A DNA stretch of 45,982 nucleotides, taken from NCBI GenBank assembly GCA_005790565.1, contig SXUJ01000128.1, forward strand, positions 1 through 45,982, in the 5' to 3' direction. Below the pieces are notes generated by a model. That model was given only the letters and a program-made list of their open reading frames with translations. It was not told the origin of the DNA and searched no databases. Numbering within the stretch: the stretch's first letter is position 1; the number at the start of each line of letters is the position of its first letter. Made by a program: the position numbers and the translations under genes. The stretch comes from Planctomycetia bacterium (GTDB lineage Bacteria; Planctomycetota; Phycisphaerae; Phycisphaerales; SM1A02). Positions 17,694-31,642 of this stretch are shown here, in pieces.

Positions 17694-17764
17694 TGGCCCG
17701 TAGTGTAACGGTAGCACACGAGTTTTTGGTACTTAGAGTCATGGTTCGAATCCATGCGGGCCAA
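17694..17764 (+). tRNA. tRNA-Gln (anticodon TTG)
   Basis: The acceptor stem TGGCCCG (17694-17700) pairs perfectly with CGGGCCA (17757-17763), and A17764 is the discriminator. A D-arm (GTGT...GCAC) is present. The anticodon loop TTTTGGT (17724-17730) has anticodon TTG at 17726-17728, reading CAA and CAG. The T-arm CATGG TTCGAAT CCATG is perfect. The anticodon stem is weaker: CGAGT against ACTTA leaves one G-T and one C-A at its base. CCA is not encoded. The glmU-prs operon begins about 180 bases downstream. Confidence 0.93.
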
Positions 17765-27760: not shown

Positions 27761-28182
27761 CGAAGTGGGGCCACCGGTGCATCGACCCCCAGGAATGCAC
27801 GCGCGGGTTCGCCCGCCGATCGCTCCCGTACACGGGTGCGTACTTCTTCCTCGAGCGCTGCAGCAGTCTTGGGGCCAATGCCTTCGACTTCCTGCAGTTG
27901 CTCAAGCGATAGGAGGCCTCCACGCGACTCTCGGAACGCCGCGATGCGAGCAGCAAGCGCCGGACCGATTCCCGAGAGCAACGCGAGTTCTTGCACACTC
28001 GCGGTTGCGAGGTCGATGCGGTGCTGCGGAATCAGAAGGGGTTCGCGCACGACAGGCGCGCCTGGCTCCATCCACGAAAGTAAGGTCGCGAAAGAAGCGA
28101 GCAGACTTGCGGCAACGAGAATCCCCGCCCGCTGCTGCCTGTTTCGCGCAATCGTTGGATCGCTGGTGGCCGTTGGAGTCAC
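27757..28182 (-). CDS. ComEA-like helix-hairpin-helix protein
   Basis: This 141-residue protein has one membrane segment (about 20-38, ILVAASLLASFATLLSW). A double helix-hairpin-helix module follows: IDLATASVQELALLSGIGPA, with LAARIAAFRESRGG, then LEQLQEVEGIGPKTAAALEE. This is the ComEA pattern, a membrane-anchored DNA receptor in transformation, but the module also occurs in proteins of other function. It starts with GTG overlapping the preceding stop (GTGA), and its own stop overlaps the mfd ATG. No other competence genes are in the window, so a role in uptake is only inferred. Confidence 0.82.
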   Translation of the reverse strand: MTPTATSDPTIARNRQQRAGILVAASLLASFATLLSWMEPGAPVVREPLLIPQHRIDLATASVQELALLSGIGPALAARIAAFRESRGGLLSLEQLQEVEGIGPKTAAALEEEVRTRVRERSAGEPARAFLGVDAPVAPLR

Positions 28183-29702
28183 GTTGGCAATTCCTCCGAA
28201 TCATCCTCGGCAACCTCTGCCGCCTGCCCCCTCGTTCCCAAAGGCGCGCGCATCGAGTTTCGCCACGCGAGTAGTTTTCCCAACACCGGTTTCGGCTTGC
28301 CCTGCACATCCAGGACGCCATCAGTCGCGATTGAAGTGTCCATCAATCGTGACCACCACAGTCCTTCGACGAATGGCTTCGACATCGCAATGCGCGCCAC
28401 GCGAGTCGCCCAACTTCCCTGTGTTGCTTCGCTTGCGGCACCGCGCCATGAACCACACTGTGAGACATCGCCGCCCGACGGTGTTCCAAATCCCGAGATG
28501 AAAACTGGAAGTTGCCGTCCGATGTAGCGATCGAGGTCGCTTGAGATCATCAGGAGGTCTCGCAGTGCGAGACGATCGGGAACAAAATCCAATCGGAGTC
28601 CCACCGCATTGACTCCCACGCCATCCGACGCGAGTCGTTCAAGCAGCCCCGTCGGCGCAACGGCACCGAGTCGGTTCGAGGTTCGTTCGTGAAACGGGTG
28701 ATCGATCTCCACCATCGTGCGCGCGTTGCGTTGATGTGTCCGAAGCGCGAAGGCGATCTTGCGAACAAACTCGCTCATGTGCGAGGCGCTCATTTCGCAC
28801 ACCACATTGGAACCCACGCCGCACACGGCATTCCAGAATATGTTGACCTTCTGATAGCGCTCCGCGAGCACGCACGCGTGATCCCAGCACGCCTCGCGAA
28901 ACCGTTCCAAGTCCTTCGTGAGCCCGAGGACCTCATCGGGAAGCGCGTCGGCGCGAAGGTCCACGATCGGCCCGAGCACGACCTGCTTCTGCTCCTTCGA
29001 CGCGAAGGCAACCCAACGATCAAGCGCGGCGAAGTCGTAAACCACTTCACCCTTACGCCCCTTGCCGCGCGCCATCGCGCGCCAAGGAACCCGAATAGCG
29101 AGCACATCAAAGGTCCGCGCGGCCGCCGCGACGAGCCCCACGGGCGGCGCAGTGGTTGGGTCAACGACGATGCCTAACAGCGCGCTGCTCGCTGCATGCG
29201 ATCGGTAGCGCCGCCGTAAAAAGATCTCCGCATGCTTGAGCGCGAGGGCCTCACCAGCATCCATCCCGTGCGCCACGGCATCCCTCGCCGCGCGCTCTGC
29301 GTCGAGCGAACGAGACGCCACGATCGCGCTACGAAAAAAACTGCGCGCTCGCTCCCACCGATCAAGTGCATCTCCCGCGCGCGACGGATCCCACATCTGC
29401 CAATCTTCTGTCTTTTCGATGTACTGCTTGATCCGATGCCGAGCGACTTCGAGGAAGAAATCATATGCCTCCGCACGCGCCGGAAGGACGCAGGTTTGGA
29501 CAAGCATCCTTCCCATTTCGCCAACTGGCGCGAGACACGCATACGCCGCCTCTTGTGCTCGTTCAGGCTGAAACTGCAGGTTCAATCCGTCACGGACGGA
29601 GGCCCCTCGCACTGCGCGATCTTCGCCCGCAAGTCCGTGCCCGAGCGCTCCAAGCGCCTCGTCGTGGCACAAGTTTTTATCATGGACTCTGAATCGAAGC
29701 AT
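28179..29702 (-). CDS. GH10-fold (xylanase-like) protein lacking the catalytic glutamates
   Basis: This 507-residue protein starts with MLRFRVHD, as do related planctomycete proteins I recall annotated as endo-1,4-beta-xylanase. The N-terminal 120 residues form a separate module. Then comes a (beta/alpha)8-like region with the GH10 order of segments. In GH10 the acid/base Glu is in a WDVVNE motif; the matching place here reads FWNAVCG. The nucleophile Glu is normally in an ITELD-type motif; here it reads VFISGFG. Both catalytic Glu appear lost, so hydrolase activity is doubtful. SKPFVEGLWW and GKPKPVLGKLLAW near the end are also family-like. Its stop overlaps the comEA-like start by 4 bases. 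The start faces the purC-folD gene across 53 bases. No signal peptide is visible, which also argues against a secreted xylanase. Confidence 0.65.
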   Translation of the reverse strand: MLRFRVHDKNLCHDEALGALGHGLAGEDRAVRGASVRDGLNLQFQPERAQEAAYACLAPVGEMGRMLVQTCVLPARAEAYDFFLEVARHRIKQYIEKTEDWQMWDPSRAGDALDRWERARSFFRSAIVASRSLDAERAARDAVAHGMDAGEALALKHAEIFLRRRYRSHAASSALLGIVVDPTTAPPVGLVAAAARTFDVLAIRVPWRAMARGKGRKGEVVYDFAALDRWVAFASKEQKQVVLGPIVDLRADALPDEVLGLTKDLERFREACWDHACVLAERYQKVNIFWNAVCGVGSNVVCEMSASHMSEFVRKIAFALRTHQRNARTMVEIDHPFHERTSNRLGAVAPTGLLERLASDGVGVNAVGLRLDFVPDRLALRDLLMISSDLDRYIGRQLPVFISGFGTPSGGDVSQCGSWRGAASEATQGSWATRVARIAMSKPFVEGLWWSRLMDTSIATDGVLDVQGKPKPVLGKLLAWRNSMRAPLGTRGQAAEVAEDDSEELPT

Positions 29703-29755
29703 GCGCAATTCTCGCGTCCCATGCGTGGGGCGTGCGAGTGTACCCTCCACTCCCC

Positions 29756-31642
29756 ATGATCTCCGGATTTGCCGCCATTCCTCCGGTCTTTCAAACGAAC
29801 CTGCCGCTTGCGGGTCGTCGGCAAGGCAAAGTTCGCGACCTCTATCAGCTTGCCCCTGACTCGGATGGTCGTGCGCGATTGCTCGTCGTCGCCACGGATC
29901 GCATCAGCGCGTTCGATGTGGTCATGCCGACGCCCGTTGGCGGAAAGGGAGCGCTCCTGACCGCGCTGAGCCTTGGTTGGTTCGCGTTCCTTCGCGCTCG
30001 CGGCATTGTGCAGGATCATGTGCTGCAAGCTGGAATTGGCGGCGTTCCTGAACTCGACGCGCTCCCTCCTGACATGCGCGCCTCGCTCACCGGACGAACG
30101 ATGGTGTGCCGAGCGGCGAAAGTCATTCCAATTGAGTGTGTCGCGCGCGGCTATCTCGCGGGAAGCGGCTGGAATGAATACCAAGCGTCGGGGACGGTCT
30201 GCGGAATTCGGCTCCCCTCAGGCCTGCGACAGTGCGAGCAATTGCCTGAACCCATTTTTACCCCCGCAATCAAGGCAGAAACGGGGCACGATGAGAACGT
30301 CACCTTTGACGGCGCTGCGGCACTCGTGGGTGGCGAAACAATGGAGCGACTCCGCGCGCTGACACTCGCGATCTACGGTCAAGCGGCCCAGCATGCACGC
30401 GACCGTGGTGTGCTTCTCGCGGACACCAAGTTTGAGTTTGGATTTGCGCTCGACCCCGATGGACGAACGAGCGCCGAGTTGCTGCTCGTCGACGAAGTGC
30501 TCACCCCCGATTCGAGCCGGTACTGGCCCGCGGATCTCTACGCTGCAGGCCGCGATCAACCGAGTTTTGACAAGCAGTTTCTTCGCAATTGGTTGCTCGA
30601 ACTCGTCGCGGCGAGAAAGTGGAACAAGGAGGCGCCAGGGCCTCAACTGCCGTCCGAACTCGTCCAACAGACGCTCGGACGGTACCTCGAAGCGCTCGAT
30701 CGATTGGGGCTCGAACAAGTGCGACGCGACACCTTTCGCGAGCGCGTGACGCGAGCGCAGGTTGCGGGTCGACCCGCTGCGCCCTCCCTTCCGTCAACCG
30801 GCGCGACGATCATCGATGGCCGCCTTCTCTCCAACGCACTCCGCGCATCGACAAAGGCACGAATTCTCGCGAGTACCTGTGGTGTTCGACTCGACGCGAT
30901 CATGGTTGGCGAAGACCCCGCGAGCGCCGTGTACGCGGAGAATCAAGCCAAGACCTGTCGCGAAGTGGGAATTGACTATCGCCTCCATCGCATCGCGAAG
31001 GGCGCGGGATTCGAGGAGATCGCGGGTCGTATCCTCCTCCTCAACCGAGACGACGCCGTGCGCGCGATCATGCTCCACCTCCCACTTCCGGAGGGGATCG
31101 AAACGGAACGCATGCAATCGCTGATCGCGCCAGAAAAGGATGTCGAAGGCGTCAACCCTGCAAACATTGGCAATGTGGTGTACGGTCGCCGCAGTCTCGT
31201 GCCTTGCACCGCGCTCGCGGCTCTCGAGATGATCGAATCGACCGGCATCGTGCTGCGCGGCGCGCGCTGCGTCATCGTTGGTGCGAGCAACATCGTGGGC
31301 AAGCCCATCGCCGTCCTTCTGATGCGAGCGGAAGCAACTGTTCTCTCCACGAACAAGTACACAACAAATCTCGCCGAACTCACGCGGGGGGCGGATGTGA
31401 TCGTGGCTGCCGCCGGTGTGCCAAGCCTCATCACCAAGGACATGGTGAAGCCAGGCGCGGTCGTGATCGATGTTGGCATCAATCGAGTCCGCGATGCGGG
31501 CGGAAAGCTCACGACGGTCGGCGATGTCGATTTCAGTGGAGTCCGCGAAGTTGCCGGATTTCTTTCACCCGTTCCGGGCGGCGTTGGGCCAATGACAGTC
31601 GCGATGCTGCTCCGCAATGTCGTCGACGCCACGCTGCGATAA
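29756..31642 (+). CDS. PurC-FolD fusion: SAICAR synthetase with methylenetetrahydrofolate dehydrogenase/cyclohydrolase-like domain
   Basis: One uninterrupted 628-residue frame joins two enzymes. Residues 1 to about 325 are SAICAR synthetase (purine synthesis): GKVRDLYQL, VVATDRISAFDVVMP, IECVARGYLAGSGWNEY, AETGHDENVTFD, LADTKFEFGF, LLVDEVLTPDSSRYWP, DKQFLRNWL. After a linker, residues about 350-628 are FolD: IIDGRLLS, VGEDPASAVYAENQAKTCRE, PEKDVEGVNPANIG, the NADP loop VGASNIVGKP, and PVPGGVGPMTVAMLL. FolD makes 10-formyl-THF, which purine synthesis consumes. The catalytic Tyr393 and Asp462 are kept. The Lys four residues after the Tyr is Gln397, and the Gln of the VQLPLP motif is His441 (LHLPLP). 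The ATG at 29756 is the start that matches PurC. Confidence 0.93.
   Translation: MISGFAAIPPVFQTNLPLAGRRQGKVRDLYQLAPDSDGRARLLVVATDRISAFDVVMPTPVGGKGALLTALSLGWFAFLRARGIVQDHVLQAGIGGVPELDALPPDMRASLTGRTMVCRAAKVIPIECVARGYLAGSGWNEYQASGTVCGIRLPSGLRQCEQLPEPIFTPAIKAETGHDENVTFDGAAALVGGETMERLRALTLAIYGQAAQHARDRGVLLADTKFEFGFALDPDGRTSAELLLVDEVLTPDSSRYWPADLYAAGRDQPSFDKQFLRNWLLELVAARKWNKEAPGPQLPSELVQQTLGRYLEALDRLGLEQVRRDTFRERVTRAQVAGRPAAPSLPSTGATIIDGRLLSNALRASTKARILASTCGVRLDAIMVGEDPASAVYAENQAKTCREVGIDYRLHRIAKGAGFEEIAGRILLLNRDDAVRAIMLHLPLPEGIETERMQSLIAPEKDVEGVNPANIGNVVYGRRSLVPCTALAALEMIESTGIVLRGARCVIVGASNIVGKPIAVLLMRAEATVLSTNKYTTNLAELTRGADVIVAAAGVPSLITKDMVKPGAVVIDVGINRVRDAGGKLTTVGDVDFSGVREVAGFLSPVPGGVGPMTVAMLLRNVVDATLR

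Follow-up and report, generated by a model that had tools for sequence, protein, structure and literature searches.

A fused purC–folD gene in one genus of the Phycisphaerales, and the co-occurrence of FolD residue 54 with FchA in the class Phycisphaerae

The window analyzed here, the whole stretch of 45,982 nucleotides of Planctomycetia bacterium contig SXUJ01000128.1 (order Phycisphaerales), belongs to a 2.66-Mb genome in 177 contigs that is estimated to be 100% complete, with 2.89% contamination. On its forward strand, SAICAR synthetase (PurC) and a FolD-type protein are encoded by one gene (Table 1). The stop-free passage from purC into folD that the first-pass annotation had read holds: translation of the plus strand gives 628 residues and a single, terminal stop, and all four genomes of the genus (g1) examined, this one included, have the same frame. 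Translation might also begin further upstream, at in-frame GTG codons at -18 or -24.

Table 1. Positions in the window of the fused gene and of the features within and beside it.
Feature	Position	Strand	Remarks
15-base block just upstream of ATG	29734..29748	+	identical in 4/4 genus genomes examined
purC–folD fused gene	29756..31642	+	628 residues + stop; translation, Pfam, NCBIfam; same frame in 4/4 genus genomes
SAICAR synthetase (PurC) domain	29822..30613	+	residues 23–286; NCBIfam PurC model extends to residue 319; Pfam, NCBIfam, PDB
Linker	30710..30802	+	residues 319–349; no SD-like motif shared by all 4 genomes; no conserved in-frame start codon
FolD-type methylene-THF dehydrogenase domain	30803..31639	+	residues 350–628; Pfam, NCBIfam, alignment to E. 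coli FolD
Gln397 codon	30944..30946	+	at place of E. coli FolD Lys54 (alignment)
His441 codon	31076..31078	+	at place of E. coli FolD Gln98 (alignment)
Glu464 codon	31145..31147	+	at place of E. coli FolD Asp121 (alignment)

The synthetase is complete, as first read: Pfam recognized SAICAR_synt at residues 23–286 with 226.3 bits (cut-off 20), and the NCBIfam PurC equivalog gave a full-length match to residues 18–319 with 364.5 bits (cut-off 251). Among PDB structures, a chain of 1a48 matched this half (E-value = 7.4 × 10-69). It is the only purC match of the genome and, judging from its sequence, is expected to be an active SAICAR synthetase. The second half carries THF_DHG_CYH (residues 353–464, 86.8 bits; cut-off 32.8) and THF_DHG_CYH_C (PF02882; residues 468–626, 195.6 bits; cut-off 27). 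The "complete FolD" of the first-pass annotation therefore stands with regard to length and to both Pfam domains, but not with regard to the cyclohydrolase site, where the residues corresponding to Lys54, Gln98 and Asp121 of the E. coli enzyme are replaced. None of the FolD models among the NCBIfam matches listed (25 of 36) reached its own cut-off on the fusion, the best equivalog or subfamily score being 286.3 bits against 421. No second match to PF01259 or PF02882 was found by profile search in the 2.66-Mb genome outside the fusion. Because the PurC model ends at residue 319 and the NCBIfam FolD models start at about residue 350, the linker measures about 30 residues; it is short, as had been noted, but longer than the 25 or so residues given then. 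The AlphaFold2 model of the fusion had a mean pLDDT of 57.9 overall; the FolD half was confident (73–94 in most 10-residue blocks) and the PurC half was modeled poorly, so that the model says nothing on the arrangement of the halves.

The 15-base block upstream of the ATG is a possible promoter or leader element. The divergent neighbor gene (28179–29750, minus strand) had no Pfam match; it stays beside purC in the loci compared, with 26–41% identity outside the genus. A tRNA gene (17694–17764, plus strand) was the sole Rfam match at the gathering score in the window.

The other three genomes of the genus contain the 628-residue frame, 93, 89 and 85% identical to that of the window, without any insertion or deletion. 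In the four genomes, change at third versus second codon positions was 0.485 versus 0.054 in the PurC part, 0.611 versus 0.217 in the linker and 0.512 versus 0.042 in the FolD part. The linker is the fastest-changing part (dN 0.16–0.52), yet its frame and length are kept. Within residues 251–460, no start-type codon is shared by all four genomes before that of residue 383, which lies inside FolD; production of a full-length FolD from an internal start is therefore unlikely.

Full-length fusion matches were confined to genus g1. Among the matches listed, they were found in 4 of 81 relatives, 4 of 181 family genomes and 4 of 400 order genomes, all of this genus, and in the sample of 392 phylum genomes the only one was in the sole member of the genus (G000). 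The scans together covered 772 distinct genomes, four of g1 and 768 others of the phylum, and no fusion was found in those 768; the order and phylum scans scored at most three candidates per genome, and full-length matches rank first in the lists. Among the best 80 of 591 related loci, only L043 was fused; it is labeled "Phycisphaerales bacterium isolate Baikal-deep-G172" and is very probably the record of G001. The best-matching named loci were labeled planctomycetes, many of them Phycisphaerae or Phycisphaerales. No relative was found in the viral contigs searched. The first-pass annotation did not know the fusion as a described architecture, and a literature search, in part of which the results were mostly noise as "FolD" also matches the word "fold", gave no description of it.

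In the alignment with E. coli FolD, the second half retains Tyr50 (E. coli numbering) and the nucleotide-binding GASNIVG motif, which we take to be the glycine-rich motif of the NAD(P)-binding Rossmann domain. The catalytic lysine (Lys54) is not present, Gln397 being found instead, and all of the five solved FolD-family chains aligned have Lys, Gln and Asp at positions 54, 98 and 121. Asp121 is likewise a residue of the cyclohydrolase site, and Sundararajan and MacKenzie in 2002 reportedly dealt with the human residues Lys56 and Gln100. A K56Q change met in the literature belongs to another protein. The three replacements are not peculiar to the fused protein; most of the FolDs read in the family have them. 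According to passages of one study (PMC5688156), E. coli FolD with K54N has undetectable cyclohydrolase and about 19% dehydrogenase activity, and with Q98H an estimated 1% and about 8%, respectively; the K54N strain is viable with very slow growth, and the conversion of methenyl-THF to 10-formyl-THF also occurs spontaneously. Since the cyclohydrolase site differs at three of its residues and the genome also encodes a separate FchA-like protein, the FolD half is expected to go no further than 5,10-methenyl-THF. By analogy with the E. coli mutants it is most likely a dehydrogenase with little or no cyclohydrolase activity, and the earlier claim that it supplies 10-formyl-THF is not upheld. The E. 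coli single mutants may be a poor guide to a naturally evolved enzyme that has all three replacements. The natural FolDs here differ at Lys54, or carry Q98H, the change that gives E. coli FolD resistance to carolacton.

If cyclohydrolase activity has been lost, a replacement enzyme might be expected, and a separate cyclohydrolase (FchA) was predicted from the FolD residues before any search for it was made. Such an enzyme would not be strictly needed, since, according to the same passages of PMC5688156, the conversion also proceeds spontaneously and the K54N mutant is viable. An FchA-like gene is located on contig C19 (L200:4800–5444, minus strand), where it adjoins pheT. Its product of 214 residues belongs to the FTCD_C family (PF04961; 118.8 bits, cut-off 24.5) and lies below the cut-off of the NCBIfam FchA equivalog (71.7 bits against 275). 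The best PDB chain is that of 7vg4, a methenyl-THF cyclohydrolase (E-value = 6.9 × 10-13), and formimino-THF cyclodeaminases are also among the PDB matches. The protein probably acts as a cyclohydrolase. The likely users of 10-formyl-THF in the genome are a PurH match and three Formyl_trans_N matches. In a profile search of 81 relatives, FTHFS had a match in ten genomes (over the cut-off in nine) and none in G000–G003.

The type of FolD and the presence of FchA go together well beyond the genus. Of the 81 relatives, 65 have FchA (PF04961); the remaining 16 make up the whole of families f5 and f6 in this set, and all of these have Lys-type FolD (Lys54). Gln-type FolD was read in 54 of the 81, each with FchA, three of which (G022, G050 and G063) have both FolD types. 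Two genomes of family f1 (G011 and G034) have Lys-type FolD only and keep FchA. As for the other relatives, the site was cut off in G026 and G045; G006, G014 and G030 were left out; and G013, G017, G020 and G048 had no match. The sample of the class comprised 160 genomes. Of these, 135 lie outside the order, and 128 of the 135 had a FolD match; 95 loci from 91 of the 128, chosen to span the families, were read, so that the large families f104, f106 and f109 are covered by only some of their members. In this set outside the order, FchA accompanied Gln-type FolD in 62 of 63 genomes (the exception, G642, is 79% complete). With Lys-type FolD only, 27 genomes were without FchA and one, G684 of family f112, had it; genomes outside the 118 FchA matches were counted as being without FchA, and 22 of these were unnamed in the search result. 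An additional, Lys-type second copy of FolD was found in G598, G622, G650 and G694. Altogether, FchA exists in 116 of 117 Gln-type genomes versus 3 of 46 with the Lys type only, counts that are not independent along the tree. Wherever both sites were readable, Glu121 goes with Gln54 and Asp121 with Lys54; position 98 is variable in Gln-type FolDs (His, Gln, Asn, Leu, Met or Phe). In f106 (G637) and f115 (G687), both the FolD type and FchA differ from those of the other members read; in f1 (G011 and G034) and f112 (G684), the FolD residue differs and FchA is kept.

Two further observations concern this set. In G687 (L292), the FchA gene lies directly beside the Gln-type folD, and the five other f115 genomes read have the Lys type without an FchA match; this looks like a joint replacement. 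In families f109 and f117 (L302, L303 and L318–L323), the listed FolD matches end near query residue 208 and each genome has two matches, pointing to an insertion or to rearrangement of the C-terminal part.

It seems somewhat probable to us that FolDs throughout the class Phycisphaerae are of two kinds, a bifunctional one with Lys54 and a dehydrogenase-only one with Gln54 and Glu121, FchA doing the cyclohydrolase step in the latter case; that the two states have been switched together more than once; and that one genus has further joined a dehydrogenase-only FolD to PurC, linking the start of one-carbon oxidation to a purine enzyme in a fixed 1:1 ratio. The link between residue 54 and FchA, which was not found in a literature search on FolD residues and FchA, may be a more general result than the fusion. 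The annotation "bifunctional FolD" is questionable for many Phycisphaerae, and residue 54, which largely predicts FchA among the genomes read, provides a simple, sequence-based rule open to bench testing. A different reading, which we regard as unlikely but worth weighing, is that the FolD half keeps both activities, with Gln397, His441 and Glu464 forming a different working site, and that the FchA-like protein serves otherwise, for example as a cyclodeaminase. The FchA-like protein does lie far below the NCBIfam FchA cut-off and matches cyclodeaminase structures, and the three Lys-type-only genomes with FchA are in keeping with such a reading. However, K54N and Q98H almost abolish the cyclohydrolase of E. 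coli in the data given in PMC5688156, only one of the 117 Gln-type genomes read is without an FchA match, and FolD type and FchA vary together between genomes in f106 and f115.

The orientation of purC and folD was counted by hand in the 39 family genomes outside g1 in which both genes were located among the matches listed. In 27 of them, the two are convergent neighbors at most 6 kb apart, and the closeness of purC and folD therefore predates the fusion. In the other 12, they are tandem in one (G047), on the same strand with tlpA between them in one (G008), far apart in one (G012) and on different contigs in nine, some of which have the genes at contig ends. In genus g45, purC and folD are tandem, and all of the 15 junctions read from its 16 genomes, G497 being left out, have a four-base overlap between the TGA of purC and the start of folD (12 ATGA and three GTGA); the start was listed by script in 12 and seen in the printed sequence in G493, G496 and G498. 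The state of the two genes in the relatives, which the first-pass annotation had proposed to look up, is thus fused in four of four genomes of the genus, tandem and overlapping in g45, and mostly convergent in the family. Separate purC and folD with an intervening stop, which it had named as refuting the fusion if found in the closest relatives, are absent within the genus and present in g45, where they look like the state before fusion.

The order mfd (-), X (-), purC (+), folD (+), tlpA (+), dadA (+) is common to the g1 and g45 loci compared, and convergent relatives such as G044, G442 and G018 have folD (-) at the corresponding place. From this comparison, folD alone seems to have been inverted in place. 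A gene, F6, lies between tlpA and dadA in G044, G442 and G018; no F6 was seen in the stretches of g1 and g45 examined, and G005 is also without it. A tree of Mfd unites g1 and g45 (SH-aLRT 99, by a quick method with several rows partial). A tree of purC and folD places g1 away from g45, among convergent genera (95/91), and the first tree likewise separates the two genera; a g1 + g45 clade imposed on the purC and folD data was not rejected (p-AU 0.167). A second inversion of folD in g1 is possible, and a single inversion followed by fusion would be the simplest reading. The fusion probably arose from a tandem purC–folD pair with a four-base stop/start overlap, the stop being lost and the frames joined within one genus. 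If so, a likely intermediate of an enzyme fusion is still visible in living relatives, from convergent genes through tandem genes with a four-base overlap to the fused gene. In genus g6 (G008 and G504; L150 and L151), folD lies on the strand of purC and the tlpA in between is inverted, which probably reflects a separate inversion of two genes.

We therefore favor, with a probability of roughly 0.8, the reading that SAICAR synthetase and a dehydrogenase-only FolD were fused from an overlapping tandem pair, that the FchA-like protein makes 10-formyl-THF and that the effect of the fusion is co-production. The PurC half would convert CAIR, aspartate and ATP to SAICAR, the FolD half would convert 5,10-methylene-THF to 5,10-methenyl-THF, and the separate FchA-like protein would then yield 10-formyl-THF for PurH and the formyltransferases. 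Both enzymes would be produced in equal amounts (1:1) and co-localized, with no transfer of an intermediate. Folates take no part in the PurC reaction, nor purine intermediates in that of FolD, so that the two reactions have no intermediate in common; channeling between the halves, which the first-pass annotation had considered, is accordingly unlikely, and co-regulation of one-carbon supply with purine synthesis, its other proposal, is plausible. That the fusion couples the two with a benefit beyond co-production is compatible with the favored reading, and we consider it quite unlikely. Both halves serve purine synthesis and their genes were close before the fusion; against this, the reactions lack a common intermediate, the final one-carbon step is predicted to be carried out by a third protein outside the fusion, and the data are explained by the neutral joining of two overlapping genes. 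Indeed, the fusion may be neutral, resulting from loss of the stop between overlapping genes. The idea that a sequencing or assembly error joined neighboring genes, or that the halves are produced separately, has a negligible probability in spite of the two genes with a stop in between in g45, because the presence of the same indel-free frame in four genomes, at 85–93% identity, and its codon-like substitution rule out an error, and no in-frame start is conserved anywhere in residues 251–382 for a free FolD.

Compared with known systems, the FolD half has the same two Pfam domains as E. coli FolD over its whole length, with Tyr50 and GASNIVG kept, and differs from it in the replacement of Lys54, Gln98 and Asp121, in the attached PurC and in scores below the cut-offs of the FolD models among the NCBIfam matches listed. 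As in MTHFD1 (C1-THF synthase), a FolD-type domain is joined to a second enzyme; however, the partner there is FTHFS and here PurC, and an FTHFS domain is absent from the protein and has no match in the genome. FolD–FTHFS is described as a fusion, and further FolD fusions are said to be possible, in a portion of PMC11064299. Sections of PMC3261824 call the PurCE fusion common in eukaryotes and report an archaeal protein in which a CofG-like radical SAM domain precedes a PurC-like domain. In both of these, PurC is linked to a second enzyme, as it is here; in the present protein, however, that enzyme is a C-terminal folate enzyme, and PurE and radical SAM domains are absent from the Pfam matches. 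FolD alongside a separate cyclohydrolase, FchA, is mentioned for some microorganisms in part of PMC7219735. The genome described here likewise has an FchA-type protein, of predicted function, beside a FolD-type protein, but its FolD is fused to PurC, and the residues were compared within the phylum. In short, as far as these portions of the literature go, FolD fusions, PurC fusions and a separate FchA are already known, and the pairing of PurC with FolD is new.
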